Source of the DNA: Pelosinus fermentans
Lineage (GTDB): Bacteria; Bacillota; Negativicutes; DSM-13327
Length of the DNA: 18,513 bases
Assembly (NCBI GenBank): GCA_002434245.1
Contig: DJJR01000042.1
Location: 1-18,513 of the forward strand
Reading direction: 5' to 3'
Shown: piece after piece, positions 711-15,978 of the stretch
How positions within the stretch are numbered: position 1 is the stretch's first letter
Layout: each line of letters starts with the position of its first letter
Position numbers and translations under genes: made by a program
Notes under the pieces: model-generated
Told to the model about the DNA's origin: nothing
Database searches by the model: none
Seen by the model: the letters and a program-made list of their open reading frames with translations, nothing else

Positions 711-758
711 TACTATCTCACCTTTTCCGCACCTAAAAACTTATACTTTCTATGCTTA

Positions 759-800: not shown

Positions 801-852
801 TTATGCTGCGGCTTAGATATCCTATCGCTGAACTATTTTTTTAGCATTATCC

Positions 853-1833
853 TTAACCACCCACCTGGGACATATTTCGTATCAAATTCGTCCCTTCCCG
901 ATCATTGCCCCAAATATGATGAAGGGGCTTGCTTTGCAGCGCTTTTACAAACAGCTCCGCGACTTTACTGTCACTCGTACCACTGCGTAAGGCATGCTTA
1001 ATATCAAATTCTTTGTTTGCAAGTAAACAAGGTTTAATTTTTCCATCGGCTGTCAAACGAATGCGGTTACAGGTATAACAAAAATGCTGTGTCATCGGCG
1101 TGATAAAGCCGAATACCCCCATTGCCCGGGGCAGTCGATAATAATAGGCGGGTCCATTTCCCTTTATACTGAACGTTTTTTCCAACATACCATACCCTGC
1201 TGTATTGATGCTGTTTTTTATTTCCTTACTACTATATCCTGCTTTCACACCGCAGGGCCCAAGAGGCATGTATTCAATAAATCGTACTGCAATAGGAAAC
1301 TCATAGGTTTGTTTTATGAAATAAGACAAATCTTCCATGGAAAAAGCTTCCGTCACAACTACATTGAGCTTAACGGGAGTCAAGCCAGCATGCATAGCGC
1401 TTTTTATTCCTTGCAATACATCTGACAACTGACCACCACCTGTAATACGAGAAAATTCTTTTGGATTAAGAGTGTCAATGCTGATATTTACTCGATCTAA
1501 ACCAGCCTTTTTAAGCTGATAAGCTCTATCTGCAAGTAAGCTGCCGTTTGTTGTCATTGCCAAATCTGCAACCGTTTTTATTTCTCTAATAGCACGAATG
1601 AAATCCACTATTCCCTTGCGGATTAATGGTTCACCACCAGTAATACGAATCTTATTCACGCCATATTGTCCCAATATCCGAATCACACGAAGCAACTCTT
1701 CGTAAGACAATATTTCAGAGTGTTCCAGTAAGGGAACTCCTTCTGGAGGCATACAATAGCTGCAGCGAAAATTGCAACGATCCGTAATAGAAATTCGCAA
1801 ATAGTCAATGACACGTCCAAAACTGTCCTGCAT
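853..1833 (-). CDS. moaA: GTP 3',8-cyclase MoaA (molybdenum cofactor biosynthesis)
   Basis: MoaA is a radical SAM enzyme that, with MoaC, turns GTP into cyclic pyranopterin monophosphate, the first step of molybdopterin synthesis. The 326-aa form starts at ATG 1833 (FGRVIDYLRISITDRCNFRC follows). A GTG 18 nt upstream opens the same frame, but AGAGGAG lies between the two starts, 8 nt before the ATG. The radical SAM cluster is C20, C24, C27. A GGEPLIRK motif follows. The second cluster lies in CYTCNRIRLT plus a later Cys (KPCLLA). The C-terminus ends in the family-typical double glycine (MSQVGG). It is the last gene of the minus-strand series, 51 nt after the C_GCAxxG gene, but has its own promoter, which suits a housekeeping enzyme that also serves the cluster. 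Confidence 0.96.
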   Translation of the reverse strand: MQDSFGRVIDYLRISITDRCNFRCSYCMPPEGVPLLEHSEILSYEELLRVIRILGQYGVNKIRITGGEPLIRKGIVDFIRAIREIKTVADLAMTTNGSLLADRAYQLKKAGLDRVNISIDTLNPKEFSRITGGGQLSDVLQGIKSAMHAGLTPVKLNVVVTEAFSMEDLSYFIKQTYEFPIAVRFIEYMPLGPCGVKAGYSSKEIKNSINTAGYGMLEKTFSIKGNGPAYYYRLPRAMGVFGFITPMTQHFCYTCNRIRLTADGKIKPCLLANKEFDIKHALRSGTSDSKVAELFVKALQSKPLHHIWGNDREGTNLIRNMSQVGG

Positions 1834-1858
1834 CTGTTTCACTCCTCTCACTGCTAAA

Positions 1859-1888
1859 ATTTTAACGGTTCTAACCTTCTATTGTCAA
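1859..1888 (-). promoter_or_regulatory. Sigma-A type promoter of moaA
   Basis: On the minus strand a perfect -35 TTGACA (1888-1883) is followed after 18 nt by TAAAAT (1864-1859), or after 17 nt by TTAAAA. The predicted transcription start is near 1852, just upstream of the moaA ribosome binding site. The -35 box contains the TGA stop of the preceding gene. This would uncouple moaA from the upstream operon. Confidence 0.7.
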
Positions 1889-2325
1889 GAACCCGAGAGG
1901 AAGCCATTATCCTCAAGAATTTCCGTAGCTTTTAAATATGTCTGTATCACTACATCCGGGCAGCGAGTCAAACGATTCCAAGGATCATGATTCATAATGT
2001 GCTGGCAATCGATACCGCCATACTCTTTTGCAAATGTTTCTTCAAACCATACTACCAATTCCTGAATCATCGTATTTAATTGATGATTTTCCCGTTCTTC
2101 CAGCTCGCCCCGACCTCCATACAAACCTAATAAACAAACCGCTCCCGTTAAGGTTCCACAGTTTTTGCCGCTAAAGCCTAATCCACCAGCTAATCCCGTC
2201 ATGGCCCGTATTAAATCAGGATTGTTTTTTTCCTGCTCTTCCAGTCCTAACATGATCATAATCTGACTACAGTGAAATCCTTGCATATGCAGCTTAGTTA
2301 CACGAGCGACTACATCCCCTGACAT
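1885..2325 (-). CDS. C_GCAxxG_C_C family protein (DVU_1555-like)
   Basis: A 146-aa soluble cysteine-rich protein. It carries the spaced pattern that names the family: HCSQ near the N-terminus, then NCGTLTGAVCLLGLYGGR, then DCQHIM and TRCPDVV near the C-terminus. Family members are presumed to bind a metal, an Fe-S cluster or redox-active cysteines, and none has an established reaction that I know of. The open frame reaches 2376, but AGGGGGG lies 5-7 nt before ATG 2325, so the shorter start is preferred. It then sits 22 nt after the histidine phosphatase stop, with no overlap. From memory it corresponds to the DVU_1555 family found next to aldehyde oxidoreductases. Confidence 0.85.
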   Translation of the reverse strand: MSGDVVARVTKLHMQGFHCSQIMIMLGLEEQEKNNPDLIRAMTGLAGGLGFSGKNCGTLTGAVCLLGLYGGRGELEERENHQLNTMIQELVVWFEETFAKEYGGIDCQHIMNHDPWNRLTRCPDVVIQTYLKATEILEDNGFLSGS

Positions 2326-2347
2326 TAAAAATCCCCCCCTCAAAAAA

Positions 2348-2965
2348 TCAGCCTTCTCCTCTACAGATTGTTTCATTTACTAACTTTACCTGCCAGCCGG
2401 ATTTCCTTGCAGTGATGATATTCAAAGAACCATAATCTTGGTGCATTCTAAAAAGATTTGCCAAAGGCATTCCTAATACATAGCACAGCAGCAACCGATT
2501 GACTCCTGCATGCCCGACAAGCAAAATAGTACCTGACGAAGAATTCATAATCTCATGAAACGCGTCAATCACACGCTTATAGCAATCAGCAAAACTTTCT
2601 CCCCCCGCCACTCGATAATAGCCAATATCAGCTCCACGTGCCTTAAACTCCTCGGGATATTCCTTCACAATATGGGAGAATGTGCGCCCCTCCCAATTTC
2701 CCATATGTATCTCCCTAAGATCTTTTCGCATAATAACTGGAATCGCTTTGTTACCGGCTATTATCTGAGCGGTCTGCTGAGAACGCAAAAGATCACTACA
2801 GTATATCTTACCAATGTCTATATCTTTTAAGATTGTTTCTAAACATTGAGCTTGCTGTATGCCTTCCAGGCTTAATGGCAAGTCGAGTTGGCCAATATAC
2901 CTTCGTTGATTATCTTCCAATTTAATTTTTCCATGCCTAATCAAATATACCGTCCTGTTTTCCAT
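2348..2965 (-). CDS. Histidine phosphatase (phosphoglycerate mutase / CobC-like)
   Basis: A 205-aa member of the histidine phosphatase superfamily. The phosphohistidine motif LIRHG holds His11. Arg and Glu residues follow in DLLRSQQTAQ and HMGNWEGR, and the second catalytic His lies in VGHAG near residue 147. Family members remove phosphate from small metabolites. The nearest named type is alpha-ribazole phosphatase (CobC), but no cobalamin genes are nearby, so a phosphorylated intermediate of the aldehyde oxidoreductase system is a better guess. The ATG overlaps the TGA of the AMP ligase gene (ATGA), which implies translational coupling. The substrate cannot be read from the sequence. Confidence 0.88.
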   Translation of the reverse strand: MENRTVYLIRHGKIKLEDNQRRYIGQLDLPLSLEGIQQAQCLETILKDIDIGKIYCSDLLRSQQTAQIIAGNKAIPVIMRKDLREIHMGNWEGRTFSHIVKEYPEEFKARGADIGYYRVAGGESFADCYKRVIDAFHEIMNSSSGTILLVGHAGVNRLLLCYVLGMPLANLFRMHQDYGSLNIITARKSGWQVKLVNETICRGEG

Positions 2966-4299
2966 CAGCTGTCTTTCAACTCCATAATCCTTCTTTTAGG
3001 AGCACTGGGAAAAAAAGTACCTTTACTGCAAATTATTTTTACACTTACGAAGAGCTGCCCCGCTTGTCTTGCCTGAGCCAGCGCCGGCACACGGTACAGT
3101 GCATCCCAAAGTGCACGCTCAGCAGCCTCATTAGACTGACCTAATAACCAAACAGAAACATGCAGTTGTATTGCTTGCTGCAAACTATCAACACTAACTG
3201 TAAAATCAATTACTCCATCCACCGCCAATATGTTTTCATCCAGATCCGACATAGTGAAAAATGTATTGCTTTTGAGAAAAACCAGACCATCCTTTCTTTT
3301 GATGATCCGTTCTAATGTTTTAAGTATGGTACCACAAGAACAGGGATCAGGAAGAAACCTTGATAGATCCCCTGTCCGATAGCGAATAAAGGGCATTCCC
3401 TGTCTAGTCAGCGTGGTAAAAACAACTTCCCCTTCCTGCCCATCAGGTACTGGCATGCCTCTTTGATCAACGATTTCGAAATACAAATCCGCTTCCCGCA
3501 GATGATACCCCTTATGGGCTGCACAGTCCAGGCCGCCTCCCAAACCCATTTCAGTCATGCCATAGTGTTCAAATACTTGGCAGCCCCACACGCGAACCAA
3601 CTCTTGAATAATCACGTCAGGTACATGATCCGTGCTGAGCAGTGCACTCTTAAGCCGAATAGTTTTTTTTGTCATTTCAGCATAGCGAGCTAATGCCAGT
3701 ACTTGTATCGGAATTCCAACTAAGGAGTCAATTCTTTCCTGTACCATAAACGCTACTGTTTTAGGAATATTTTGCACAAGACCATGAAGAATAGGCACCA
3801 CTCCTGCCCGCTCCAGTGCCTTGCTCAGCAAATCACCAACACTGCCGACACGTTCACCTGGCAGCAGAATCAGAACCCGATCTCCCCTTTCCAAAAAAGT
3901 GGACATGCCTTGTTGAAAGAAATCAATCGTTAGTTCTTGATCAAAATCGGTAAAATATATGCGTTTGGCCTCACCTGTTGTCCCGGAACTATTTAATGTC
4001 ACAATTCGGCTGATATCACTTTGGGATACACAGAGAAACTGTCGTGCCTGTTCTCTGATATGATCCCCAGTAGTAAAAGGAAATTGCTGCAAATCTTCCA
4101 TACAAGTTATTTCTTTGCTGACAAAATTCTTTAACAGCTTACGGTAAAAAGGACTGTTCTCGTAGGCCCGCTGGATAGTTTGCCGTACTTTATGCAATTG
4201 ATAGTGAGCAATTTGCTCTCGGGTCAAATTCGATCTCAATCCCATTTTCTTTGCGTTCCAAGCCTCAAACATTTTGTTTTGTTGTACTGTTGCCCTCAT
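2965..4299 (-). CDS. AMP-forming CoA ligase, phenylacetate-CoA ligase-like (DVU_1553-like)
   Basis: A 444-aa member of the adenylate-forming superfamily, closest in form to phenylacetate-CoA ligases. The phosphate-binding loop is TLNSSGTTGEAK (about residues 101-112). The adenine/acyl motif is HYGMTEMGLGGGLDC, followed by a motif similar to the PaaK GLH-type segment (GYHLREADLYFEIVD), then YRTGDLS. A CSC pair follows, and a basic C-terminal tail (APKRRIME) may carry the lysine used in adenylation. It presumably activates a carboxylate as acyl-AMP and passes it to CoA or another acceptor. The acid is unknown. It starts 9 nt after the radical SAM gene and overlaps the phosphatase by 4 nt. From memory it matches the family called DVU_1553 AMP-dependent CoA ligase, always near a Mop-type oxidoreductase. 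Confidence 0.87.
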   Translation of the reverse strand: MRATVQQNKMFEAWNAKKMGLRSNLTREQIAHYQLHKVRQTIQRAYENSPFYRKLLKNFVSKEITCMEDLQQFPFTTGDHIREQARQFLCVSQSDISRIVTLNSSGTTGEAKRIYFTDFDQELTIDFFQQGMSTFLERGDRVLILLPGERVGSVGDLLSKALERAGVVPILHGLVQNIPKTVAFMVQERIDSLVGIPIQVLALARYAEMTKKTIRLKSALLSTDHVPDVIIQELVRVWGCQVFEHYGMTEMGLGGGLDCAAHKGYHLREADLYFEIVDQRGMPVPDGQEGEVVFTTLTRQGMPFIRYRTGDLSRFLPDPCSCGTILKTLERIIKRKDGLVFLKSNTFFTMSDLDENILAVDGVIDFTVSVDSLQQAIQLHVSVWLLGQSNEAAERALWDALYRVPALAQARQAGQLFVSVKIICSKGTFFPSAPKRRIMELKDS

Positions 4300-4308
4300 T
4301 ATTTATAA

Positions 4309-5691
4309 TCACCCCTTTAAGGGACGATAAAGAGGATTGCCCTGTTTATCCGTCAAGTTATAAGCGCAAAAGGGAATGATTCGGCTATCCGGGCTGACCA
4401 CATGAATGAAACATTCTCTTAAACGATCCAGATCCAAATTCCAGACATCCTGAAAGGCCATGCCCGATATGCAGAAGGAATACTTTTCCACACGATCTAA
4501 AAAAGCATCCATACTGCCAACATGAATGTCATTACCATATTTCTCCTCTTTACTTTCGCGCTCTCTCCTCTCTGTTTTTTGGGGCGCAGACCAGCGTTTC
4601 GCAACAAAAGTGCGAGCTTTTCTTGCTTCCACAGCTGCTACTTGGGGCTGGCAGCATCCCTTTGAACCTGCGTTTGACCACGCTTTTAATTCTCCATTTG
4701 CCATTAGAACAAAATTGCCATGAAAGGAACAATAGGCATTTTCTCCCCTGGGGGGCTGAAAATCTTCTATCTGAAATTTTCCCCCAGCCTGCTTTACAAT
4801 CTTGTTTATAACCTCCGGAATGGTAATCCGTTCTCTATCTGAAGGTTCTTGAGGATATCTGCCAAAATAGCTGACAGGCTGAAAATGAACGCCGCGTACT
4901 GTCGGCATTTGTTCAATAGCATATTGAATAATGGATCCGATATTTTGGGTATTCACGCCAGGAACTAATGTCGGCACAAGAACTACTCCTAACTGCTGCT
5001 TAGCACAATTGGCAATAGCCGCCTGCTTTTCTGCCAGCAAAGCCGATCCTCGTAATTTCTCATAAATTTCATCATTGGTGCCGTCAAACTGCAAAAACAC
5101 ACAGGATAATCCAGCTTCTTTTAGTCTTTTAACGTAGCTATAGTCCCTTGCCAGCCTTAGTCCATTGGTATTTACTTGAATAAAATCATATCCTAAACTT
5201 CGTCCTGAGGCTATTATTTCCGGCAGATCATCCCGTAAGGTCGGCTCACCTCCAGATAACTGAATATTATAGGGACCGCCACTTTTTAATAATAGGCGAT
5301 ACCAGTTTTCAATTGTCGTTCTATCCGGATCACTTTCCTCGGAACCTGCTGTGGCAAAACAGATAGGGCAGTGCAAATTACACCGCTTAGTAACTTCAAG
5401 CAGAACACAGCATGTGTGCTGACGATGATCTGGGCACAAACCACAATCAAAAGGACAGCCTTGGCTAACATTGGTTGCACATACAGGCGGCCTGGAAGGA
5501 AGTTTGGCAACAGACCAGGAGGTATAAGACGGATGTCCCCGCCAAATTACCGTACAAAAATCCCCGTGATCTTTACATGTCTTCACCAGATAAATCGTAT
5601 GATTTATTTCAACTCTTTTTGCCTTTATACGCTGTAGGCACTCGGGACAAAGGCTTTCCGTTATTCCTACTATAGTTTTCTTATCCTGCAT
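4309..5691 (-). CDS. trsS: Multi-cysteine radical SAM protein (TrsS-like, DVU_1554 neighbourhood)
   Basis: A 460-aa radical SAM enzyme. The canonical CxxxCxxC is in TKRCNLHCPICFATA (C104, C108, C111), followed by the SAM motif LSGGEPTLRDD. Before it come an N-terminal CPEC pair (15-18), two more cysteines (39, 46) and a dense set C71, C79, C83, C86, C94, C95, enough for a zinc site and extra Fe-S ligation. More cysteines follow (CSFHG, GCC, FCISG, PFCAYN near the end). This resembles the MJ0619/Tes type, which alkylates or methylates pterins and lipids, but the substrate here is unknown. A TTG at 5718 opens the frame but touches its own AGGAG, while ATG 5691 has AAAGGTGG at 9 nt. A charged, low-complexity stretch (about residues 370-395) looks like a linker. 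The name TrsS is from memory. Confidence 0.82.
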   Translation of the reverse strand: MQDKKTIVGITESLCPECLQRIKAKRVEINHTIYLVKTCKDHGDFCTVIWRGHPSYTSWSVAKLPSRPPVCATNVSQGCPFDCGLCPDHRQHTCCVLLEVTKRCNLHCPICFATAGSEESDPDRTTIENWYRLLLKSGGPYNIQLSGGEPTLRDDLPEIIASGRSLGYDFIQVNTNGLRLARDYSYVKRLKEAGLSCVFLQFDGTNDEIYEKLRGSALLAEKQAAIANCAKQQLGVVLVPTLVPGVNTQNIGSIIQYAIEQMPTVRGVHFQPVSYFGRYPQEPSDRERITIPEVINKIVKQAGGKFQIEDFQPPRGENAYCSFHGNFVLMANGELKAWSNAGSKGCCQPQVAAVEARKARTFVAKRWSAPQKTERRERESKEEKYGNDIHVGSMDAFLDRVEKYSFCISGMAFQDVWNLDLDRLRECFIHVVSPDSRIIPFCAYNLTDKQGNPLYRPLKG

Positions 5692-5725
5692 ATCTGTTAG
5701 CCACCTTTCTAACTTCAACTCCTAT

Positions 5726-6850
5726 TCACAGGTCTTTAGCTGCCATTACCAGGCTAATGCCTAATAGCTGCTCTACTGCTTGTTCCATCTTTTCAGCTCG
5801 CAAAAGACGTTCTCGAATAACGGCAACCGCCTCTGCACTTGCTGCATAGTTGTCCATAGAATCAGAAAACCGTTTCTTAATGGACACAATGTTGCCTCCT
5901 TTTACCAGCTTATCCGCCAAATATACGACTGCAGCCTCATCTGGCAATGCTTTTTCATTCATTTCCAGATCAGTATGTGCAGCAACGATCTGCGCCACCT
6001 TATAATATCCATATTTTTTTAGTATTCTACCGCCAATTTGAGCATGATTGGGCTTTCCTTTAGCTAAATCATGCAGCTTTCCAGCAGCTATGACAGCGTG
6101 AACATCAATATTTAGGCCGATTTGATTCAGACGAAGAGCCAAATTCTTCGCTATCTTTGCTACCATTCTGCCATGCTTCACAATCGGCTCTGACACATTC
6201 ATTTTCACTAAGATTGCTTCACACTCAGCCTGCGTCGGAATATCCCGACGGTAGTATCCTGTCATAATCTTCTGATAGTCCTCGTGAGTATCAAGATCCA
6301 GCAATATGCCTTCATCAAATACCTCTACTTCATATGCGTTCCCCTCACGCCTTTCTAAAATTTGACGCAAGCCTCCCCTTGTATTACCCAACAGAATTTC
6401 AGGAAAGCAATTTGCACCAATTAAAGGAGGATGCCCCCGATGTTTCTGGAAGACAGGGTAGATAATATCTGCCTTTACTTTATTAAACGCCCGCCCCAAC
6501 ACTCTCACCGTATGACTTTTTACCAAAGGCATATCTGACGGCAGTAGGAAAAAGGCTTTGGTTTCTGTCGGTAGGGACTGCACTCCCTTGACAATAGAAG
6601 AGAACATTCCTTCGCTATACTTTTCATTAAAAACATAGGACACCTTTAGCGCATCCAATATAGGTATCAATTCATCAGCCCGATGCCCCACCACCACTGT
6701 GATATCCATTATACTGGCTTGTCTGAATGTATTGATTCCTCTTTCAATCACTCTTAAGCCACCTAAGGGCAGCAGCGACTTACATTTCACCATACGAGAT
6801 GAATAGCCTGCTGCCAATAATACTGCGCCTATTTTACCTTTATTCCACAC
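5726..6850 (-). CDS. MocA-like molybdopterin nucleotidyltransferase fused to an HD domain (DVU_1551-like)
   Basis: A 374-aa two-domain protein. Residues 1-200 are a MobA/MocA-type nucleotidyltransferase: LAAGYSSRMVKCKSLLPLGG, PSDMP (104-108) for metal binding, a GHPPLIG motif and DLDTHEDY (185-192). MocA makes molybdopterin cytosine dinucleotide from CTP and Mo-molybdopterin, the form expected for the aldehyde oxidoreductase upstream. The usual Gly after RM is Val21. Residues 205-364 are an HD metal-dependent phosphohydrolase with all ligands present: H226, H260-D261, H269, H292 and D313. The start is GTG, with AGGTGA 6 nt upstream. The HD half might remove a phosphate or nucleotide or control cofactor turnover, which is inference. 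From memory the family is called DVU_1551 NTP transferase. Confidence 0.85.
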   Translation of the reverse strand: MWNKGKIGAVLLAAGYSSRMVKCKSLLPLGGLRVIERGINTFRQASIMDITVVVGHRADELIPILDALKVSYVFNEKYSEGMFSSIVKGVQSLPTETKAFFLLPSDMPLVKSHTVRVLGRAFNKVKADIIYPVFQKHRGHPPLIGANCFPEILLGNTRGGLRQILERREGNAYEVEVFDEGILLDLDTHEDYQKIMTGYYRRDIPTQAECEAILVKMNVSEPIVKHGRMVAKIAKNLALRLNQIGLNIDVHAVIAAGKLHDLAKGKPNHAQIGGRILKKYGYYKVAQIVAAHTDLEMNEKALPDEAAVVYLADKLVKGGNIVSIKKRFSDSMDNYAASAEAVAVIRERLLRAEKMEQAVEQLLGISLVMAAKDL

Positions 6851-6880
6851 TCTATTTCACCTGCGCTTTACTGCTTTTTC

Positions 6881-7192
6881 TCAGATGATTTGAATAAATA
6901 CCTCCATGATACCTCCACATACCATTCCCTCGTCTGCAGCCATATCATTTAGCATGCTCACTGTATATAAGCTGGAGCAATTTACATCCAGTGCCGTTAA
7001 CGCTTGGCGCCTGACCTCCCCTTCCGCGCATCCTCCGCCAATCGTTCCATAAGAGGTACCATCTGGTAAAATCAACATTTTACTTCCTGCTTTGCGAGGC
7101 GTTGATCCACGAGTTTCCACAATAGTGACTAAGACAGCTTTTTCCCCCTTATGCTGCAGTTCGCAAATTCGGTTAAGGATTTCTGAGTCCAC
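6881..7192 (-). CDS. Small XdhC/CoxI-domain protein
   Basis: A protein of about 103 aa consisting only of the XdhC/CoxI domain: TRGSTPRKAGSKML, then GTIGGGCAEGEVRRQAL, then a C-terminal MVCGGIMEVFI. In full-length XdhC this is the N-terminal half, and the conserved cysteine in GGGC is implicated in binding or sulfurating the Mo cofactor before insertion. An in-frame GTG lies at 7213, but AAGGAGG sits between it and GTG 7192, so the latter is preferred. It overlaps the end of the Rossmann-domain XdhC gene by 20 nt, which implies coupled translation of the two parts. It acts in the cytoplasm, probably as a partner of that protein. Confidence 0.85.
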   Translation of the reverse strand: MDSEILNRICELQHKGEKAVLVTIVETRGSTPRKAGSKMLILPDGTSYGTIGGGCAEGEVRRQALTALDVNCSSLYTVSMLNDMAADEGMVCGGIMEVFIQII

Positions 7193-7955
7193 AGGATCCC
7201 TCCTTGTCGGCACTTAATGATCGACCAGACCCACCGCCGCGAAAAACACCAATTACTTCAGCAACAATACTCACGGCTATTTCTACGGGCGTTTCTGCTC
7301 GAATATCAAGACCAATCGGAGCCTTTAGACGCCCTTCAAGGTCCTCTGCTCTTCCTTCCTCCCGCAAAACAGCAACTACTTCTTTTACCCGTTTCTTGCT
7401 GCCAATCATCCCCAAATATCGAGCTTTACTACCCATGGTAGCACGCAAACATTCCAGATCATATCTATGCCCGCGGGTTACAATAATCACAGCAGTGTCA
7501 CTGCTTATGACCAATTTCTTAAAAGCTCGGTCGAAGTTTTCGCAAATGATAGTATGAACTCCTGGAAATCTGGCCTGATTTGCAAATTCAGGGCGGTCAT
7601 CCACTACTGTCACAATAAAATCCAATTGGATAAGCATTTGGACCAAGGGTTGACTGATATGCCCGCCACCAAATACAATCGCATGGTATTTAGCTGTCAT
7701 CCTATCCCAAAAAATCCGATAGGTTTCTCCTGATTGATCTGCAAGGGAAAGTGTCATGGCTTTGCTCCATGGCAGATTTTTCACCGTATCTAATACTTGC
7801 TGCCTAATCATCCCTTCCAATTGACTTTCTATTCTTCCGTCTTGATGGATGATCAGCATTTTTCCAATGTCATATTTAAGACTACTAGCAATAACAGTAA
7901 AACAGTCAGCGGTTCTGCCACTATTTTGAGCCGAAAGCAGGCTACTAAATATCAT
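7173..7955 (-). CDS. XdhC-family maturation factor, Rossmann-domain part
   Basis: A 260-aa XdhC-type protein. The C-terminal XdhC Rossmann domain is complete: VFGGGHIS (94-101), VVDDRPEFA, VIIVTRGHRYDLECL, RYLGMIGSKKR and the family-typical KAPIGLDIRAETPVEIA. The first 90 residues look like a worn copy of the CoxI domain (IGKMLIIHQDGRIES...) without the GSTPR and GGGC motifs, which are instead carried by the next gene. XdhC proteins stabilise, sulfurate and insert the molybdenum cofactor into xanthine dehydrogenase-family enzymes. The target here should be the aldehyde oxidoreductase at 12150-14888. The start is ATG with AAAGGAGG about 6 nt upstream. It is the first gene of the second operon, divergent from the + strand gene at 8093. 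Confidence 0.88.
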   Translation of the reverse strand: MIFSSLLSAQNSGRTADCFTVIASSLKYDIGKMLIIHQDGRIESQLEGMIRQQVLDTVKNLPWSKAMTLSLADQSGETYRIFWDRMTAKYHAIVFGGGHISQPLVQMLIQLDFIVTVVDDRPEFANQARFPGVHTIICENFDRAFKKLVISSDTAVIIVTRGHRYDLECLRATMGSKARYLGMIGSKKRVKEVVAVLREEGRAEDLEGRLKAPIGLDIRAETPVEIAVSIVAEVIGVFRGGGSGRSLSADKEGSCGLRNP

Positions 7956-8011
7956 ATAAATCCTCCTTTATCCGGAAGGTTATATCATCCTTCACTGGTA
8001 ATCTTCACCAC

Positions 8012-8040
8012 ATTTATCTTGAATTTGCATTGGGATTCAA
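8012..8040 (-). promoter_or_regulatory. Possible sigma-A promoter of the xdhC operon
   Basis: On the minus strand TTGAAT (8040-8035) is followed by GATAAA after 16 nt or ATAAAT after 17 nt. Another -10-like TATAAC lies nearer the gene. The match is only moderate. The second operon could also be fed by read-through from the sigma-54 transcript, although the + strand gene lies between. Confidence 0.35.
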
Positions 8041-8054
8041 TTACCATATAGAAT
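8025..8054 (+). promoter_or_regulatory. Possible sigma-A promoter of the + strand gene at 8093
   Basis: TTGCAT (8025-8030) is followed by TATAGA after 16 nt or TAGAAT after 18 nt, giving a leader of roughly 30 nt. It overlaps the candidate minus-strand promoter, so the two transcription units may compete. Confidence 0.4.
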
Positions 8055-8092
8055 AAGTGCCATCGTATTTATTTTTTCCGGAGGTTGATACA

Positions 8093-8545: not shown

Positions 8546-8560
8546 TCCTGCTCGGCATGT

Positions 8561-8788: not shown

Positions 8789-9492
8789 GAACCTTTTTCC
8801 GCTATCAGCAAATAATAGCCTAATCCAGGTATTTTTTTATCCAATTTCTTTTTTCCTGTACATTGCCAAAGTTCTTCGATTGAGCCATGCTCCATAATGA
8901 AACTGGCAACAAATTCTTTTAGAAAAGCAGTCTGATCCTCAAAGACGAGTATATTAAAATCATGCTTCTGTATTATCTGAAAAAGATCACTGTGGGTCAT
9001 GATGCCGGGTATATCACAGTCTCCTTCTCGGATATAGAGATCCGTTATGGCCAGCTTTCCTCCCGAAACAAGAATACGATTGATTTCAGTTAAAACCTTA
9101 GAGACATCAGGCATAACCGATAAACTGCACTCAGCCAAAACACCATCAATCGAATGATCGGCAAAAGGCATGTCTCTGCCTGGTGACTGAATGAGTTGTA
9201 AATCAGCCTTGCGTTCTTTTCCCTGCTGCAATAATGGAGTGGACAAGTCAACACCCAGAGCATGCACTCCTCGTACATCCTGTAGATACTCTACAGTAGT
9301 TCCCGTGCCACACCCCATATCAACAACGATAGAACAATGGTCAAAGTTACAATAATCAACAAGTCTCCGTGTTAATTGTAATCCCCCTGGACGGGCTCCT
9401 TCGGCCATGTCAGCAAAAATCTTATTTTCATATATATTCGAACTACATTCATGCAGATCTGTCGTAATAGGATCATTATGTTGGCCCATCAT
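8785..9492 (-). CDS. trsM: Class I SAM-dependent methyltransferase (DVU_1556 / TrsM-like)
   Basis: A 235-aa methyltransferase with a Rossmann fold. Motif I is VVDMGCGTGT (56-65), then the acidic strand end ALGVDLSTPLL, the post-motif region SPGRDMPFADHSIDGVLAECSLSVMPD and the later GGKLAITDLYIRE. The residues CSLSV stand where many family members carry an aromatic acceptor site. The substrate is unknown. The ATG overlaps the TGA of the 66-aa gene (ATGATG), with GGAGG 4-8 nt upstream of the two possible Met codons. Position and form match what I remember as the DVU_1556 family, which is found together with the radical SAM protein at 4309. That pairing suggests the two act on the same molecule. 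Confidence 0.85.
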   Translation of the reverse strand: MMGQHNDPITTDLHECSSNIYENKIFADMAEGARPGGLQLTRRLVDYCNFDHCSIVVDMGCGTGTTVEYLQDVRGVHALGVDLSTPLLQQGKERKADLQLIQSPGRDMPFADHSIDGVLAECSLSVMPDVSKVLTEINRILVSGGKLAITDLYIREGDCDIPGIMTHSDLFQIIQKHDFNILVFEDQTAFLKEFVASFIMEHGSIEELWQCTGKKKLDKKIPGLGYYLLIAEKGS

Positions 9493-9689
9493 TTGTCCTC
9501 CAGTGCTTTTTCCACCTGGTCCATCTTCCCCTTTGCTAACTCTTCAGGAATATATACCAGCCCGCATTGCGGGCATTTATAAAGTTCAACAGGAAACTCA
9601 TTCCCCAAGTAGGCTAGGGTTACCTTTCCTAAGGCAAGAGGAATATCGCAAGTATTACATATAATGATATTCTGAACTTGCTTATCCAT
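9489..9689 (-). CDS. Small CxxC redox/zinc protein (DVU_1557-like)
   Basis: A 66-aa protein with two cysteine knuckles, ICNTCD (C11, C14) and CPQCG (about C39, C42), in a rubredoxin- or zinc-ribbon-like arrangement. A beta-rich middle and a helical tail (MDQVEKALEDK) complete it. It presumably binds one metal and may carry electrons between the oxidoreductase and the dicluster protein. It starts at ATG with GAGGTGA about 4-5 nt upstream, 9 nt after the end of the dicluster gene, and overlaps the methyltransferase start by 4 nt. From memory the DVU_1557 redox protein family occupies the same position in other genomes. Confidence 0.82.
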   Translation of the reverse strand: MDKQVQNIIICNTCDIPLALGKVTLAYLGNEFPVELYKCPQCGLVYIPEELAKGKMDQVEKALEDK

Positions 9690-9698
9690 AAAGTCACC

Positions 9699-12035
9699 TC
9701 ATGATCCTTTTATCTCTAATCTGTGGCTATAGGCATTATGCACCAGGAAGCCGTCTTCCTGAGGAGAATACTCTACCCAATACGTTACACTGGCAGGTTT
9801 AAAAGATGCAATATAAGAGTTATTTTCCATGTTTTTAAATTTATTACCAGTATGTTCTGCCTGTGAAATCACAGCTATAATATCACTATCAAGAATCATC
9901 AACTCTTCCAAGGTCTGCCGTACATTCTCTGAAATGATCAACGTAACGTTGCACTGTTCTTTGTCTGCCAACTCTCCCCACACCTCTTTTTGCAGCGTCC
10001 TTTTCAGCCTTGCCCTATTCTCCTGTCGCTCAGAATAGCCGGGACCTTTTTTGCCAGCCACATCTTGCTGCCTTGTTGGAAAAATCAAGTCCAAAAGGTG
10101 ATAGCTCTGCTTTCCTTGACTGGCAAAATTATCACGGCACATTGCACAGTAAGTAAGAAAATCATTTTCACTCTGTTGACTGCGCTTTTTTATCATCTTA
10201 TGGGCAATTTCTTTATTAGCAAACAGCATAAGACCTCCATAACCACAACACTCTGTAAATTCATTACTGTTTTCCAATTCCTCCACTTGGTGGCCAAGTG
10301 TATGCAAAATTTTTCGTATACTTTGCTGTAAGGCAGCTTCATGCCTTGTGGTACAAGCATCATGTACCACCAATTTTAATGGCGCAAGCGGCTCTTCCCC
10401 TTGATCTGGCAGTCCAATTTTATCTAATACTGTCCATATTGACTCAACATCCATAGAAGGCCATTCACGCTTAAAAACACTATAGCAAGTGGGACAGCCT
10501 GTGATGACCCGGGGAGAACCCAATTTCCGCCAATTATCTTCGATGGCCTTACTTGTTTCTTTAAATAAATTTTCTTGTCCTGCCCAGTCAGCTGGAACAC
10601 CGCAGCAGCCCAGCATTAAACCCACGCCATCAGTTATTTTTTTGCAAAGGAATTGGTACATGCTTTTTACATGTTCCGGCGAAGAGGCACTGAGCTGGCA
10701 ACCGGGAAAGAATACGGTACTGCTGGATGCAAAACCTGGCTGATGTCTGCTGAAGGCAAACTTCTCACTGGTACTAAACTGCATGTCTCGTAAAGCAAAA
10801 TCATGGACTCTTGGCGGCATTTTCCCTTTTTTGACCATAATCCGTCTTGCTTCTTGGCAAATTTCTCCCATATTCAAATTTCCCGGACAAACCTGCTCAC
10901 ATAAACCGCATAAATTACAGGCATTAATCATTTTATTCGCATGGTGAACGCCCATCACAATGGATGAATTATTATAAACTTCCCGTACATACCGCTTTGG
11001 ATAAGCGTGAAAATGAGCCAGATATTCACAAACCTTAACACACTCCAAACACTCACATAATAGGCAGCGCTTCGCCTCCTTTACTGCTTCTTCCGTCGTA
11101 TAGCCTTTATTGGGATCAGCGCTTCGTACCCTTCTTTGCGGTTCTACGCCAGCAATATTTGTGTAAAGTAAAGAAGTAAAAGCTCCTTCCTTTTCCCGAC
11201 TGGCTGTAAGAGAAGCATTTTGTAAGAAACGATCGATTGAATTTGCAGCTATTTTCCCATGAGAGATTGAGGTAATTGGTGACTTATGATCAGGTCCCAA
11301 GTAAAGACTGCCCCCAGCAAAAATGTTGGGCACGCTCGTTGCCAGTGTTACAGGATGAATGGCAATCCCTCCACCCACGTCAAGAGCAAGTCCCCAATCA
11401 TGGGGATTTGTTTCTATGCAGCCTGTTGCTAAATAGACAGCATCAAAAGTTGCACTTATATGATCTAACGATGTCCTTGCGTCCTTATGATTATTCACGA
11501 TAACATGTAAGTTAATTTCTAATGGTATTCTTTTTAATATGGCAAAATCATCAGCAATATTCTGCCTGGGCAGCTGATGTTCGGGAATGTTCCGTATACT
11601 CCCGCCTACTAATTTCTTTGCCTCAAAAATCACAACATGATAGCCCTTTTTGCCTAGTTCAACTGCCGCTGTTAAGCCACTTAATCCAGCTCCGATAATT
11701 GCGATGGTTTTATCCTTCGGCGGCATGGGTGTGATGTTAAGAATCAATTCATTACTATTATCCACGCAGCTTTTTTCCAGTTCATTCACTGCAATAGACT
11801 CATCTATTTCTTGCCGCTTACAGGCCTGCTGACAGGGTTGATCACAAATTCTACTAATGATTCGCGGAAAGGGCACCATTTTGTATAATAATTGCACTCC
11901 AGCTTTATAGTCCTCTTTTTGAATCGCTGCAACCATGCCTCTTACATCAACATGAACCGGGCAGGCAGCTGTACATCCTGGAGGCTGCTCTTGAACACAT
12001 TGCTGCTCTCTTTCCTTTAAGACTTTTTGCTCCAT
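9699..12035 (-). CDS. FAD-dependent pyridine nucleotide-disulfide oxidoreductase / Fe-S dicluster / CCG-domain protein (DVU_1558-like)
   Basis: A 778-aa modular electron-transfer protein. In order: an N-terminal GltD-type Fe-S domain (C21, C25, C64, C68, C72); an FAD-binding Rossmann fold with IIGAGLSG (113-120) and ATG plus VPNIFAGG (203-242); a C324/C327/C329/C332/C336 cluster site and a ferredoxin CxxCxxCxxxCP site (C373-C383); two heterodisulfide reductase-type CCG domains (C446...CC477-478...C514/C517, and C561...CC596-597...C630/C633); and a 90-residue C-terminal domain. The second, NAD(P)H-binding Rossmann domain expected in GltD-like proteins is absent: only about 30 residues separate the FAD half-sites. 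It probably transfers electrons between the aldehyde oxidoreductase and a thiol/disulfide or quinone partner. The start is ATG with GGGAG 6 nt upstream. It follows the oxidoreductase gene after a 114-nt palindromic gap. Confidence 0.85.
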   Translation of the reverse strand: MEQKVLKEREQQCVQEQPPGCTAACPVHVDVRGMVAAIQKEDYKAGVQLLYKMVPFPRIISRICDQPCQQACKRQEIDESIAVNELEKSCVDNSNELILNITPMPPKDKTIAIIGAGLSGLTAAVELGKKGYHVVIFEAKKLVGGSIRNIPEHQLPRQNIADDFAILKRIPLEINLHVIVNNHKDARTSLDHISATFDAVYLATGCIETNPHDWGLALDVGGGIAIHPVTLATSVPNIFAGGSLYLGPDHKSPITSISHGKIAANSIDRFLQNASLTASREKEGAFTSLLYTNIAGVEPQRRVRSADPNKGYTTEEAVKEAKRCLLCECLECVKVCEYLAHFHAYPKRYVREVYNNSSIVMGVHHANKMINACNLCGLCEQVCPGNLNMGEICQEARRIMVKKGKMPPRVHDFALRDMQFSTSEKFAFSRHQPGFASSSTVFFPGCQLSASSPEHVKSMYQFLCKKITDGVGLMLGCCGVPADWAGQENLFKETSKAIEDNWRKLGSPRVITGCPTCYSVFKREWPSMDVESIWTVLDKIGLPDQGEEPLAPLKLVVHDACTTRHEAALQQSIRKILHTLGHQVEELENSNEFTECCGYGGLMLFANKEIAHKMIKKRSQQSENDFLTYCAMCRDNFASQGKQSYHLLDLIFPTRQQDVAGKKGPGYSERQENRARLKRTLQKEVWGELADKEQCNVTLIISENVRQTLEELMILDSDIIAVISQAEHTGNKFKNMENNSYIASFKPASVTYWVEYSPQEDGFLVHNAYSHRLEIKGS

Positions 12036-12063
12036 ACGATCTCCCTTTCCTTCATAAATATAC

Positions 12064-12129
12064 GTAAATTCAATTCGTATATTGGAAAGCCTAAAACGAA
12101 TTGAATTTACATTTCCAATTCGTTTTAGG
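12064..12129. repeat. Overlapping, mutually exclusive inverted repeats between the oxidoreductase and dicluster genes
   Basis: Two perfect inverted repeats share their middle arm. The first is GTAAATTCAATTCGT (12064-12078) with ACGAATTGAATTTAC (12096-12110), 15 bp. The second is CCTAAAACGAATTG (12090-12103) with CAATTCGTTTTAGG (12116-12129), 14 bp. An 8-bp pair, ATTGGAAA (12081-12088) with TTTCCAAT (12112-12119), spans them. In the minus-strand mRNA either hairpin can form but not both, as in an attenuator. Neither is followed by a U-tract, so a simple terminator is unlikely. RNA processing, differential stability or a protein operator are possible roles. Confidence 0.8.
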
Positions 12130-12149
12130 TTATATTTATATAGGAACTC

Positions 12150-14888
12150 TTATTTGTCGCTTATGGATAGTGCTGCCAGTCCGGCTTTTATTTTTTCGGG
12201 CAGTGCAGGAATTGCATAAATACGTACACCACATGCATTATAAATGGCATTAAGAATCCCAGGATGAGGAGCAGTCAAGGGACCTTCCCCTGCTCCTGCT
12301 GCACCGTGAGGTCCGTGCTCGCGAGGAGTAATATTGTAGATAATTTGAATATCATCTGGTACATCATAAATGAAGGGCAGCCCACAATTAACCAGGTTTG
12401 TGTGTTTCTTAAGATCTTCGAAGTCTTCTGTAAGAGCAAGACCAATACCTTGTGCTAAACCACCATATATCTGGCCATCACAAGCTGTTTTATTCGTAAT
12501 CGTTCCCATATCAGCAACAGTGGTAAACTTAACGACTTTAGCCTTCCCTGTCTTCATGTCAACTTCCACTTCCGGCATAAATAGTTCATACATGTAGATG
12601 GGGAAAGGTTTTCCCTGACCCGTAACTGGGTCACAGTCAGTACACATCGATGCTGTCCATTTACCATCGTAGTGCAGAGGAAGATTTTCCGCTGCCATTT
12701 CATCATAGGAGCGGTAAGTGCCGTCCGGCTTACGCATAGCATTTAATAACATTTCACAAGCAACCTTGATCGCGTTACCAGTCATGACGTTGGATCGGCT
12801 GCCGCCAGAGGGTCCACTGTTAGGCGTAAAGGCAGTGTCGTTCATCACAAGCTTGATTTGCTCTGCTTTAATACCAAGAGGACGCAGCGTTTCATGAGCA
12901 TGGCTTAAGGTTCCAATATCTGCCCCTTGCCCATGATCTTGCCAAGAATCTCCGACGCTTATGCCGTTCTTTGTCAATTCGACCCAAGCTTCAGAACTAT
13001 CTGGGCCATCAAGACCACAGCCGTAAATACCAAGCGATACACCCACGCCACGTTTTTTCTCCGGCGTTGAGAGCTCTTTACACCGTTTTTTAGCTTCTTC
13101 CCATAAAGGACGGAGAGTATTAATCATGTCTTCAAAACAAAATACTTCAGGCACTTGTCCCGTAGGTGTAGTAGCTCCTGGACGGTAAATATTCTTAAAG
13201 CGCAGTTCCAAGGGATCTAAGCCAAGTTTTTCTGCCAGTTCATCCATGGCTATTTCAGAGGCTAAAAAGGCTTGAGGCGAACCATATCCACGAAATGCCG
13301 ATCCCCAGGCATGATTGGTGCAGACGGTACGGCCTTTACCCCGTATCCGGGGTATATCATAACCGGCACCAGTAAACTGAGCTTGACGCAGAGTCAGCAA
13401 ATCACCGAACTCAGAATAAGGACCATGATCAATAAACCAGTCCGTTTCCATCGCAAGAAGTTTTCCGGTTTTATCAGCAGCCAGCTTACATTTAACAAAG
13501 CCAGGCGAACGTTTACCCGTATACGTAATATTCTGATGCATTGTGAAATTAAGGGAAACAGGTTTACCTGTTGCCAGGCAGGCAACACCAAGCAATGCTT
13601 CAATGGTCGGGCTGAATTTGTAGCCAAAGGTACCGCCGGCAGGGTTTTGAACAATGCGGCATTTTTCAGGCTCAATGCCAATCCCGGCAACAATCATGGC
13701 ATGATGTAAATGAAGGCCGATACTCTTAGAATGAATGGTCAAACGACCTTCTTCATCAAAATAAGCACATCCACAATCCGGTTCAAGAGGCAGATGGGGC
13801 TGCCGGCTGCAATAGGTATCCACTTCTACAGTTACAACATCTGATTGTTTCATAATGGGCTCTGTATCTTCGCCTTTTATAATACCCTGTTCAAAATAAA
13901 TATTAGGTACGCCGGGATGTATTTCAATCGCATCCTCAGCCATTGCCGCAGGTGCACTCATGTAAGAGGGCAGAATTTCTAAATCAACTTTAACTTTCTG
14001 GGCTGCAGCTTTAGCATGTTCTTCCGTATCAGCACAAACAATTGCGATAGCATCGCCAAACTGAAACACTTTTTCATCACAAAGTATGGGCCGATCCCAG
14101 CCATCCCCTTTATTGGTTGGAAACGTAATCAGACCAGTAATACGATTTTTGCCTTTAACATCTTTATGAGTAATTACCTTATATACCCCAGGCATATTTT
14201 CAGCTTCTGCCGTATCAATCCCCAAAATATTGGCATGGGATACTTCTGCTTGCACCAAAGCCATTCGCAATGTACCTGGGGGCATTTGCAGCGCAACATC
14301 AGCGCCATAATCCCAAGTACCAGTAACTTTGCGCAAAGCAGAAGGACGATGATATGTCGTGCCATAAATTTTATTGCCAACCGGTTTATATAGTAAATCT
14401 TCTTTGTGCATTTCGCCCCGCATTACCTTAGCTGCCGCCATAACAGCATCTACCAGTGGCTTGTAGCCTGTACATCGACATGCATTACGGTTCTTTTGAA
14501 ACCACTCACGGACATCTTCTCTCGTCGGAGCCGAGTTAGTATCCAGCAATACCTTAGCCGATAGAATGAACCCGGGGCTGCAGAAACCACATTGGGCACA
14601 GCCGTATGCCATCCAAGCTACCTGCAGGGGATGGAGATTCTCTGGTTTGGCCAAACCTTCAATGGTAGTAATGTTTGCCTCATCCGGTACTCTCTTCATC
14701 TTGACAATGCAGGAGCGAACTACTTTTCCATCCATGATAATCGAACAAGTGCCGCATTGCCCCTGATTACAGCCCACTTTGCAGCCCGTTAATAAGAGCT
14801 GCTCTCGAAGTACACTTGCCAGACTGGTTTCTGGGTCTACGATTAAAACTCGCGGTAGTCCATTAATATGCAATACCTTCTTTTGCAT
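12150..14888 (-). CDS. Mop-type molybdenum aldehyde oxidoreductase (xanthine oxidase family)
   Basis: A 912-aa single-chain aldehyde oxidoreductase that converts aldehyde plus water to carboxylate plus two electrons. The N-terminal plant-type [2Fe-2S] site is C40, C45, C48, C60, and the second site is C100, C103, C137, C139 (with C97 close by). From memory these numbers equal those of the D. gigas Mop protein, which is 907 aa. The large Mo domain carries PHLPLEPDCG, AGGTFGYKFSP, GYGSPQAFLASE, QDHGQGADIGT, SGPSGGSRSNVMTGNA and finally GAAGAGEGPL, with the catalytic Glu868. The cofactor is expected to be molybdopterin cytosine dinucleotide without heme or FAD. It has no signal peptide and acts in the cytoplasm. 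The start is ATG with AAGGAG 8 nt upstream. The natural aldehyde is not visible in the sequence. Confidence 0.95.
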   Translation of the reverse strand: MQKKVLHINGLPRVLIVDPETSLASVLREQLLLTGCKVGCNQGQCGTCSIIMDGKVVRSCIVKMKRVPDEANITTIEGLAKPENLHPLQVAWMAYGCAQCGFCSPGFILSAKVLLDTNSAPTREDVREWFQKNRNACRCTGYKPLVDAVMAAAKVMRGEMHKEDLLYKPVGNKIYGTTYHRPSALRKVTGTWDYGADVALQMPPGTLRMALVQAEVSHANILGIDTAEAENMPGVYKVITHKDVKGKNRITGLITFPTNKGDGWDRPILCDEKVFQFGDAIAIVCADTEEHAKAAAQKVKVDLEILPSYMSAPAAMAEDAIEIHPGVPNIYFEQGIIKGEDTEPIMKQSDVVTVEVDTYCSRQPHLPLEPDCGCAYFDEEGRLTIHSKSIGLHLHHAMIVAGIGIEPEKCRIVQNPAGGTFGYKFSPTIEALLGVACLATGKPVSLNFTMHQNITYTGKRSPGFVKCKLAADKTGKLLAMETDWFIDHGPYSEFGDLLTLRQAQFTGAGYDIPRIRGKGRTVCTNHAWGSAFRGYGSPQAFLASEIAMDELAEKLGLDPLELRFKNIYRPGATTPTGQVPEVFCFEDMINTLRPLWEEAKKRCKELSTPEKKRGVGVSLGIYGCGLDGPDSSEAWVELTKNGISVGDSWQDHGQGADIGTLSHAHETLRPLGIKAEQIKLVMNDTAFTPNSGPSGGSRSNVMTGNAIKVACEMLLNAMRKPDGTYRSYDEMAAENLPLHYDGKWTASMCTDCDPVTGQGKPFPIYMYELFMPEVEVDMKTGKAKVVKFTTVADMGTITNKTACDGQIYGGLAQGIGLALTEDFEDLKKHTNLVNCGLPFIYDVPDDIQIIYNITPREHGPHGAAGAGEGPLTAPHPGILNAIYNACGVRIYAIPALPEKIKAGLAALSISDK

Positions 14889-14952
14889 TTCCTACTCTCC
14901 TTTATGATTTCATATTATTTCAGAGGAAATATACCCCTAAAATTTCCCGAAC

Positions 14953-15978
14953 TTAGTTACCTTTACCAAAAGCACAGTGAGGATATTGACAGGGATCACA
15001 ATTGGTACACAAACCACCATGAGCTAAACGTACAATATCTTTGCGATTAAGCTCATCTCCTGCTAGAATGCGAGGAATGATCAAATCAAAAATGGTAGTT
15101 TTGCGATACATTACACAACCTGGTAAGCCTAATACTGGAATACTGCCAATGTAGGCCAGCATAAACATAGAGCCTGGAAGTACTGGCGCTCCATAAGCAA
15201 CAACTCGCCCCCCAGCTGAGCGAATTCCTGCAGGGGTTACATCGTCAGGGTCTACTGACATCCCCCCAGTCGTTATGATCATCTCAGCACCATCTTGTAT
15301 TAATGTTTTGATGGCATTATCAATCATGTCGATAGCATCATCCACAATGATCTGCCTTAATACCCGGCTGCCCAATGCAGTTATTTTTTTATCTAAAACG
15401 GGACCAAATTGATCTTGAATACGCCCATGATAAACCTCACTGCCTGTTGTAACAATTCCTACTTTTAGAGGCTTAAGAGGTTTGATTTCCATGACTGGAA
15501 AGGATAATCTACCGATATTTTCCACATTGTTTATTTTGTTAGTTTCGATAACCAGCGGCACCACGCGGCAGCCTGCAACGATTTCTCCGGCAGAGACTAA
15601 CTGATGGGAATGGATAGAAGCAACAATAATTTCATTAATATCATTTAATTCTTCCAAGGCATCGAGATTAATTTTTAACATCCCAGGAATTTGCGCTTTT
15701 AGTTCCACCTTGCCTTCCATTGGTGCTGTTAACATAATTCCTGGACCTGTCACGGCTTTAGCAATTCTCATAGCCGCATCATTTTCATGTATAACATTCT
15801 GATTTACTTCCCAAACATAAAGATGCTCTTTTCCCAATTTTAATAGTTTGGATATATCTTCTTTTTTTACAACATGACCTTTCTTAAAGGCTCGCCCAGC
15901 TACTTTACCTGGAATAATTTCTGTAATGTCATGACACAATACTGCACCTTCCGCCTCCCATACTGGTATGACTCTCAT
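14953..15978 (-). CDS. MoeA/MogA-like molybdopterin-binding protein with C-terminal cysteine tail
   Basis: A 341-aa protein with a MoCF (molybdopterin-binding) domain at about 170-300: VGIVTTGSEVYHG, IITTGGMSVDPDDVTP (235-250) and LGLPGCVMY. Its first 150 residues are not the usual MoeA domains I and II but a shorter, SAF-like or unassigned region. The last 20 residues add a possible metal site, CTNCDPCQYPHC (C324, C327, C330, C335), absent from standard MoeA. It probably presents molybdopterin for metal insertion, or hands the cofactor to the oxidoreductase. The ATG has GAGGAAGTGA upstream. It is the first gene downstream of the sigma-54 promoter and is followed after 64 nt by the oxidoreductase gene, whose cofactor it presumably serves. 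Confidence 0.85.
   Translation of the reverse strand: MRVIPVWEAEGAVLCHDITEIIPGKVAGRAFKKGHVVKKEDISKLLKLGKEHLYVWEVNQNVIHENDAAMRIAKAVTGPGIMLTAPMEGKVELKAQIPGMLKINLDALEELNDINEIIVASIHSHQLVSAGEIVAGCRVVPLVIETNKINNVENIGRLSFPVMEIKPLKPLKVGIVTTGSEVYHGRIQDQFGPVLDKKITALGSRVLRQIIVDDAIDMIDNAIKTLIQDGAEMIITTGGMSVDPDDVTPAGIRSAGGRVVAYGAPVLPGSMFMLAYIGSIPVLGLPGCVMYRKTTIFDLIIPRILAGDELNRKDIVRLAHGGLCTNCDPCQYPHCAFGKGN

Follow-up and report, generated by a model that had tools for sequence, protein, structure and literature searches.

The 18,513-nucleotide stretch of Pelosinus fermentans DNA analysed here (the window, positions 1-18513, which is the entire contig DJJR01000042.1) may encode a complete aldehyde-oxidation operon built around a Mop-type molybdenum aldehyde oxidoreductase (AOR), with a side branch that makes a small molecule, most likely a diffusible redox carrier for Mop. 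A probability of roughly 0.4 is attached to this reading; the broader statement, that the side branch makes some small helper molecule for Mop and not an altered pterin, is probably correct. The original prediction, which covered positions 853-15978, had proposed a cofactor- or carrier-tailoring system dedicated to this oxidoreductase. Every gene that it named is recovered on the minus strand by profile-match scores (Mop, MoaA, MoeA-like, MocA-like and XdhC, plus the extra families), but its gene list omits a 778-amino acid flavin protein, its XdhC is in fact two open reading frames (ORFs) in reversed order, and its range, which does enclose the named genes, excludes the probable operon start at 16179-16194 (minus strand).

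The window holds 15 minus-strand genes, which follow one another in transcription order as a sigma-54 activator, the MoeA-like gene, Mop, a flavin/dicluster/CCG protein, a DVU_1557 family CxxC protein, a methyltransferase, a 68-amino acid CxxC ORF, two XdhC halves, a MocA-HD fusion, the radical S-adenosylmethionine (SAM) enzyme TrsS, an AMP-forming ligase, a CobC-like phosphatase, a C_GCAxxG protein and MoaA. Within 853-15978 the intergenic gaps range from -41 to 114 bases, with a single exception of 626 bases, and these tight gaps, together with the recurrence of the genes around TrsS in other genomes described below, show that the clustering is not due to chance.

The Mop gene (12150-14888, minus strand) encodes a 912-amino acid protein that matches NCBIfam NF045668 over its full length (positions 2-904 of 905) at 1665 bits, exceeding the curated cut-off of 1100 bits. 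Pfam matches and alignment to 1sij give a domain plan of two [2Fe-2S] domains and the Mo domains, with the FAD domain absent. The nearest solved chains are those of Desulfovibrio gigas (1sij, 1356 bits) and D. desulfuricans (1dgj, 1314 bits). The closest of these, the D. gigas chain, aligns over residues 3-904 and has the same domain plan, and its Glu869 (GVGE in 1sij), which is taken here to be the catalytic glutamate, is retained as the aligned Glu of GAGE in the window protein. Mop is the sole PF02738 match in its own genome, which is 83.5% complete.

TrsS (4309-5718, minus strand; NF045646, 702 bits against a cut-off of 490) is a radical SAM enzyme of the tetraether synthase (Tes) fold. 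It shares 38% identity with Tes (GDGT-MAS, MJ0619; PDB 7TOL, 7TOM) and scores 364 bits against the Tes family NF045702, short of the cut-off of 450. In the sequence alignment, the published ligands of the three [Fe4S4] sites and the rubredoxin iron of Tes are matched in TrsS: C24/C27/C48/H51, C88/C92/C95/H98 and C113/C117/C120 are present in 21 of 21 TrsS sequences, and Met420 in 20 of 21. This residue correspondence is our own, drawn from an alignment in which Tes positions 332-448 have no sequence counterpart in TrsS; the cysteines that hold the C-terminal cluster lie outside the mapped region. The two enzymes differ in that Tes Cys438 is mostly Gly in TrsS, Cys103 is invariant in the 21 TrsS sequences while MJ0619 has no Cys there, and their genes keep different company. 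Tes Tyr459 is replaced by Val in 20 of 21 TrsS sequences and by Phe in the remaining one; according to the accessible text of PMC9433317, this residue is fully conserved in 1000 archaeal Tes homologues, although it is non-essential, Tes activity being possible without it.

The NCBIfam name for TrsS reads (seleno)protein, and a 2026 review, in the part available, enters TrsS as a selenoprotein family, with credit to Haft & Tolstoy 2025 (mSystems). The window gene has no in-frame stop and hence no selenocysteine codon, a feature of some members that the family does not require. No stop codon was found inside the TrsS matches above cut-off in the phylum profile and the G380-family profile described below; two matches among the named loci (L099, L102) do contain a stop, in each case ahead of the conserved start. 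One further match (L114:10001-11847) extends over about 1847 bases, compared with the usual 1350 or so, in two ORFs, in a manner resembling an insertion or frameshift. At L116:8234-9340 (C. ragsdalei) TrsS adjoins a gene for a CobW-type GTPase, with Mop elsewhere in the genome; a few kb further on are genes that resemble, by eye, transporters of the molybdate and FecCD types.

The flavin/dicluster/double-CCG electron-transfer protein (9699-12035, minus strand; 778 amino acids; NF045663, 1042 bits) is, as judged from its sequence, an Nfn/Stn-like protein without the NAD(P) domain joined to LutA/HdrB-like CCG repeats. It thus unites in one chain parts otherwise seen in the bifurcating flavoproteins Nfn and StnABC and in the CCG proteins HdrB, LutA and EtfD. 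That it lacks the NAD(P)-binding domain found in Nfn is visible in the alignment to 9bov, where residues 209 to 215 of the query bridge residues 290 to 444 of the chain. The two repeats (CX(n)CCG X(n) CXXC) contain C446/C477/C478/C514/C517 and C561/C596/C597/C630/C633, all invariant in 22 sequences. Whole-chain Foldseek TM-scores are low, at 0.36-0.37 in the best rows. The protein keeps the company of TrsS, the ligase and the C_GCAxxG protein at loci where mop is elsewhere (L074, L079, L120).

Two phylogenetic profiles and a third search give good support to the dedication of the cassette to the Mop-type oxidoreductase, as originally proposed. The first profile drew on 199 genomes from Bacillota, the phylum of the window, and included TrsS and six further cassette families; XdhC (NF045664), DVU_1557 (NF045645) and the phosphatase were outside it. 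TrsS is above its cut-off in 12 of the 199 genomes and reaches 469.5 bits against 490 in a 13th (G072), and the methyltransferase is above cut-off in exactly these 13. Mop is above cut-off in 13 genomes and is contig-cut and below it in two more (G073, G076); all 13 TrsS genomes hold Mop, G076 as its contig-cut copy. The flavin protein is over its cut-off, at 690 bits or more, in 12 of the 13 (not G076), and more weakly so (531 to 582 bits) in four other genomes. The ligase is over its cut-off in 10 of the 199 (beyond these ten, G030 scores 281 bits, G072 275 and the next best 231; the best match in G076 is 209), and the C_GCAxxG protein in 8 (G076 has 98 bits against 103). MocA-HD is more loosely associated, being over cut-off in 7 genomes that include one without TrsS (G061). 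The link is also a specific one: Mop-like matches at E <= 1e-150 occur in 36 genomes, and the 21 of these without an NF045668-level Mop all lack TrsS over cut-off. One genome (G083) has a contig-cut Mop and no TrsS over cut-off, with a 332-bit TrsS-like match on a separate short contig. In another (G096:C45:5751-12594) a second, lower-scoring Mop-like gene (800 bits) lies beside the ligase and the methyltransferase, and contig C114 carries TrsS together with the true Mop.

The second profile concerned the family of genome G380 (Desulfovibrionaceae by inference), in which 169 of 247 genomes match the D. gigas Mop at E <= 1e-200. The TrsS query was applied to 80 of the 247, namely the first 59 Mop-positive rows, G640 and 20 listed Mop-negative genomes, and a TrsS match at E <= 1e-70 is present in 58 of the 60 Mop-positive genomes compared with 1 of the 20 Mop-negative ones. 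All but two (G494, G502) of those 58 matches, that is 56, are over the cut-off. The exceptions to the association are G439, with Mop at a contig start, G462, a 1.7-Mb assembly with two Mop matches, and G413, with TrsS and no Mop match at E <= 1e-200. The last carries tandem TrsS-like genes of 539 and 335 bits (C34:21840-24223). Fisher tests give p = 3.5e-15 for this family and 1.3e-18 for the Bacillota table, values that ignore kinship and so overstate the case, because related genomes are not independent.

In the third search, 17 TrsS genomes were examined for Mop, 15 of them picked because the fetched TrsS stretch contained no mop and two (L131, L136) with mop in it; at five of these loci (L103, L115, L116, L126, L134) TrsS stands nearly alone. 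Mop is over cut-off in 16 of the 17 genomes, and the 17th (G205) holds contig-cut fragments, for example one of 727 bits covering positions 2-382. In the reverse direction, 14 of 198 genomes sampled from the phylum of G213 (Desulfobacterota by inference) have Mop, and among 14 Mop regions from 13 of these (G213 itself not included) TrsS is present in 12; of the others, one is at a contig end (L155) and one is a second Mop (L166, in G303) without the cassette. One TrsS can serve two Mops: in G498 (Mops at C1:3420190 and C1:2043349) the single TrsS is beside the first, and G442, G461 and G481 each give two Mop matches for one TrsS. Across phyla, the cassette genes are near-obligate companions of Mop.

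The composition of the cassette was obtained from 80 named TrsS neighbourhoods retained out of 556 found, with self-chosen score thresholds and with many short loci. Around TrsS in the 80 loci are the ligase (73), the C_GCAxxG protein (73), DVU_1557 (66), the methyltransferase (61), the flavin protein (60) and Mop (48). In the 42 loci of at least 19 kb, all of which contain TrsS by selection, the corresponding counts are 40, 40, 38, 37, 38 and 35, and the cofactor genes recur less regularly (XdhC 24, MocA-HD 23, phosphatase 23, MoeA-like 10, MoaA 1), so that MocA-HD lies outside the constant core. Four loci from Desulfobacterota metagenome-assembled genomes (L109, L117, L124, L133) have a partial cassette without a local Mop, which in the first three is followed by a PhoU-like/Pit-type transporter pair (Pit-type by eye). 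The proposed recurrence of the set as DVU_1551-1559 in Desulfovibrio is supported: five of the NCBIfam families concerned (NF045645, NF045646, NF045663-NF045669) bear the D. vulgaris gene names DVU_1551, 1553, 1555, 1556 and 1557, and a paper, in the part available, names DVU_1559 as aldehyde oxidoreductase. All of these families exceed their curated cut-offs in the window except the split XdhC (NF045664), and the window differs from the set further by the addition of MoaA, the sigma-54 activator and the 68-amino acid CxxC ORF. The neighbourhood belongs to a set already familiar to annotators, family by family; its chemistry is apparently unsolved in the searchable literature; a search for TrsS function found no descriptive paper, most subscription papers being beyond its reach.

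Two hosts of the cassette have structurally characterized AORs. The Mop of G427 is 100% identical to 1sij of D. gigas over 903 residues, and the gene order of its locus is MoeA-like, Mop, flavin protein, DVU_1557, methyltransferase, C_GCAxxG, TrsS, ligase, XdhC and phosphatase, with no match to MocA-HD or MoaA in the fetched stretches. The Mop of G640 is 100% identical to 1dgj of D. desulfuricans over the 312 residues compared, and its locus has the same genes through the ligase, then MocA-HD and the end of the stretch. On the strength of these identities G427 is taken for D. gigas and G640 for D. desulfuricans. In both genomes, as in the window, the MoeA-like gene adjoins mop. The D. desulfuricans AOR carries molybdopterin cytosine dinucleotide (MCD) as its cofactor. 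For the native D. gigas AOR, the accessible text of PMC10223205 likewise gives MCD as the defined cofactor and reports a structure at 1.28 A in which the pterin is well resolved. Since TrsS, the methyltransferase, the ligase and the phosphatase are all present in D. gigas, this organism is a cassette host with a plain-MCD enzyme.

Of the genes not yet located, those for the molybdenum cofactor comprise MoaA, a GTP 3',8-cyclase (853-1851; TIGR02666, 359 bits), the 341-amino acid MoeA-like/MoCF domain protein (14953-15978; PF00994, 86 bits), the DVU_1551 family fusion of a MocA-like cytidylyltransferase and an HD domain (5726-6850; NF045665, 449 bits; PF12804 and PF01966) and XdhC, all on the minus strand. 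The XdhC domain order is reversed, the C-terminal (Rossmann) half (7173-7955, minus strand; PF13478, 142 bits; NF045664 positions 169-342) lying upstream of the N-terminal (CoxI) half (6881-7213, minus strand; PF02625, 89 bits; NF045664 positions 1-100), and the two score 187 and 95 bits against NF045664, whose cut-off is 350. The same reversed pair occurs in the Sporomusa loci L073, L075, L076 and L077, with a further XdhC match downstream in all of these but L076.

The extra genes, also on the minus strand, are the DVU_1556 family SAM methyltransferase (8785-9492, 235 amino acids; NF045667, 215 bits), the DVU_1553 family PaaK-like AMP-forming ligase (2965-4299; NF045666, 476 bits), the histidine phosphatase, which resembles alpha-ribazole phosphatase (CobC; 2348-2965; TIGR03162, 174 bits against a cut-off of 163), and the DVU_1555 family C_GCAxxG_C_C protein (1885-2376; NF045669, 171 bits). 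A Glu-Cys pair of the methyltransferase (E121-C122) is invariant in 16 of 16 aligned sequences. Of the two predicted CxxC proteins, one is the 66-amino acid DVU_1557 family redox protein (9489-9689; NF045645, 100 bits against a cut-off of 60; PF24292 DUF7479), and the other, a zinc-ribbon-like ORF of 68 amino acids that overlaps the methyltransferase stop (8582-8788), has no match in the family-library searches. The 626-base gap is occupied by a plus-strand ORF of 162 amino acids (8057-8545) without a Pfam or NCBIfam match, which may split the gene block into two transcripts. Six other loci (L073, L075, L076, L077, L079, L120) include a class-V pyridoxal phosphate (PLP) enzyme, then a protein of about 100 amino acids of no known family directly upstream of TrsS, and four more have the PLP gene without that protein; the L079 copy resembles a cysteine desulfurase/Sec lyase at scores under the cut-offs. 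This gene does not replace the methyltransferase: because the two coexist in L073, L075 and L077 it is an add-on, possibly serving cofactor sulfuration.

The regulatory gene (16394-18466, minus strand) encodes a 690-amino acid DhaR/PrdR-like sigma-54-dependent activator with GAF/PAS, AAA and Fis helix-turn-helix domains (Pfam Sigma54_activat, 228 bits; NCBIfam DhaR, 452 bits, under the cut-off of 551), separated by 415 bases from the gene block. About 200 bases upstream of the MoeA-like start is TGGCACAATATTTGCA (16179-16194, minus strand), the sole -24/-12 match with 0 mismatches in the window, where about 0.018 exact matches would be expected in uniform sequence; matches with up to 2 mismatches number 17 and are not clearly above shuffled sequences. 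This perfect sigma-54 element is probably the operon start. Rfam at the gathering threshold gives no match in the window, and no tRNA is present in it.

In the mechanism proposed here, the sigma-54-controlled operon would supply a complete aldehyde-oxidation system in which MoaA, the MoeA-like protein, MocA-HD and XdhC assemble ordinary MCD and insert it into Mop. Because Mop lacks a flavin domain, the electrons of aldehyde oxidation would leave it through the [2Fe-2S] clusters, probably to the flavin/dicluster/CCG protein. TrsS, the methyltransferase, the ligase, the phosphatase, the C_GCAxxG protein and the DVU_1557 protein would make a small molecule on which Mop depends inside the cell; the most likely candidate is a diffusible redox carrier reduced or oxidised by the CCG modules. 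TrsS would act by Tes-type chemistry, in which hydrogen is abstracted from an unactivated carbon and the radical is captured on a sulfide of the C-terminal cluster, with formation of a C-C or C-S bond as the final step. The existence of the product, its diffusibility, its role as a carrier and the electron route are all inferred.

Several points weigh against this reading. The cassette has no known product, substrate or phenotype, and one genome (G073) has a contig-cut Mop without TrsS. Two Mops are accompanied by two TrsS in G042 and by two TrsS loci in G208 (L074, L075), and G210 has two TrsS for one Mop. The flavin protein could supply electrons to TrsS instead of taking them from Mop. In addition, purified D. 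gigas AOR gives electrons to flavodoxin in vitro, according to the part of PMC10223205 consulted, and a special carrier is therefore not required in D. gigas.

A substrate pathway would accommodate the PaaK-like ligase and the DhaR/PrdR-like regulator equally well. In this alternative, the strongest rival although on balance unlikely, a specific aldehyde would be produced or consumed by the extra enzymes and Mop would convert it to an acid for activation by the ligase, with methyl transfer, phosphatase and TrsS steps before or after Mop. It draws on the pairing of this ligase with a UbiE-like methyltransferase, on a regulator of a type known from catabolic operons along with its promoter, and on a paper which, in the part available, places DVU_1559 in ethanol metabolism. 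The matched pairs of TrsS and Mop in G042 and G208 also suit it. Against it count the single TrsS for two Mops in G498 and G303, the breadth of the D. gigas Mop, which accepts several simple and aromatic aldehydes, and the retention of the set in phyla of very different metabolism. The sharing of one TrsS by two Mops tips the balance somewhat towards a common small molecule and away from a dedicated substrate step.

A more specific chemistry for the carrier may be suggested, but only speculatively: TrsS would either halt at the C-S bond known from Tes or proceed through it, and a new thiol- or C-C-linked carrier, finished by the ligase, the methyltransferase and the phosphatase, would be cycled by the flavin/CCG protein with electrons from Mop. 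The flavin/CCG protein would then be an Hdr-like reductase that lacks an NAD(P) site and acts on a disulfide or quinone-like form of the carrier.

It is doubtful that the cassette instead equips Mop itself, either at its Mo or on the protein chain, with some labile ligand or modification that is lost in purification. This would account for the near-obligate co-occurrence with Mop and for the cysteine-desulfurase-like gene in some cassettes, and the accessible text of PMC10223205 reports that Desulfovibrio AORs have a second oxo ligand where relatives have a sulfido ligand. However, the D. gigas chain is present in 11 PDB entries, and the review, so far as available, mentions dithiolene and oxygen ligands only and treats a sulfido ligand as unneeded.

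The modified pterin cofactor offered in the original prediction does not survive the D. gigas comparison, in which the cassette genes lie beside a mop whose product carries plain MCD, and a change to the pterin or dinucleotide is considered very improbable. The presence of a radical SAM enzyme and a methyltransferase in the operon and the extra HD domain on MocA speak for such a change; since the fetched D. gigas stretch shows no MocA-HD, found in that of D. desulfuricans, a change dependent on the HD domain is compatible with D. gigas. Yet MocA-HD is present in just 23 of the 42 long loci. TrsS relatives do carry the name 7,8-dihydro-6-hydroxymethylpterin dimethyltransferase, but this pterin link is unsafe, because the founding enzyme, MJ0619, turned out to synthesise lipids and the pterin annotation it bore was judged to be wrong (PMC9433317, in the part available). 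The weakest alternative, that TrsS makes membrane-spanning lipids in bacteria as Tes does and lies near mop for another reason, has in its favour the Tes fold, identity and metal ligands and the remark in the accessible text of PMC9433317 that bacterial Tes relatives are not known to produce biphytanyl chains, but it is disfavoured to the point of being highly improbable by the change of the archaeal-invariant Tyr459 to Val, non-essential though that residue is, and by the Mop linkage in the G380 family, which it leaves unexplained.

The D. gigas AOR has been the family model under study for almost 40 years (PMC10223205, in the part available), and its gene belongs to the same operon as those for a flavin/CCG protein and for a radical SAM enzyme resembling tetraether synthase. 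Existing structural data on this enzyme remove the idea of a changed pterin, and the bacterial Tes relatives gain a defined genetic setting. Should the cassette's product prove to be a carrier or a partner that the AOR requires, the role of this enzyme and its natural electron acceptor become directly testable, and if the thiol-carrier chemistry is true, the cassette would make a bacterial counterpart of coenzyme M and coenzyme B, long hidden beside a textbook enzyme.

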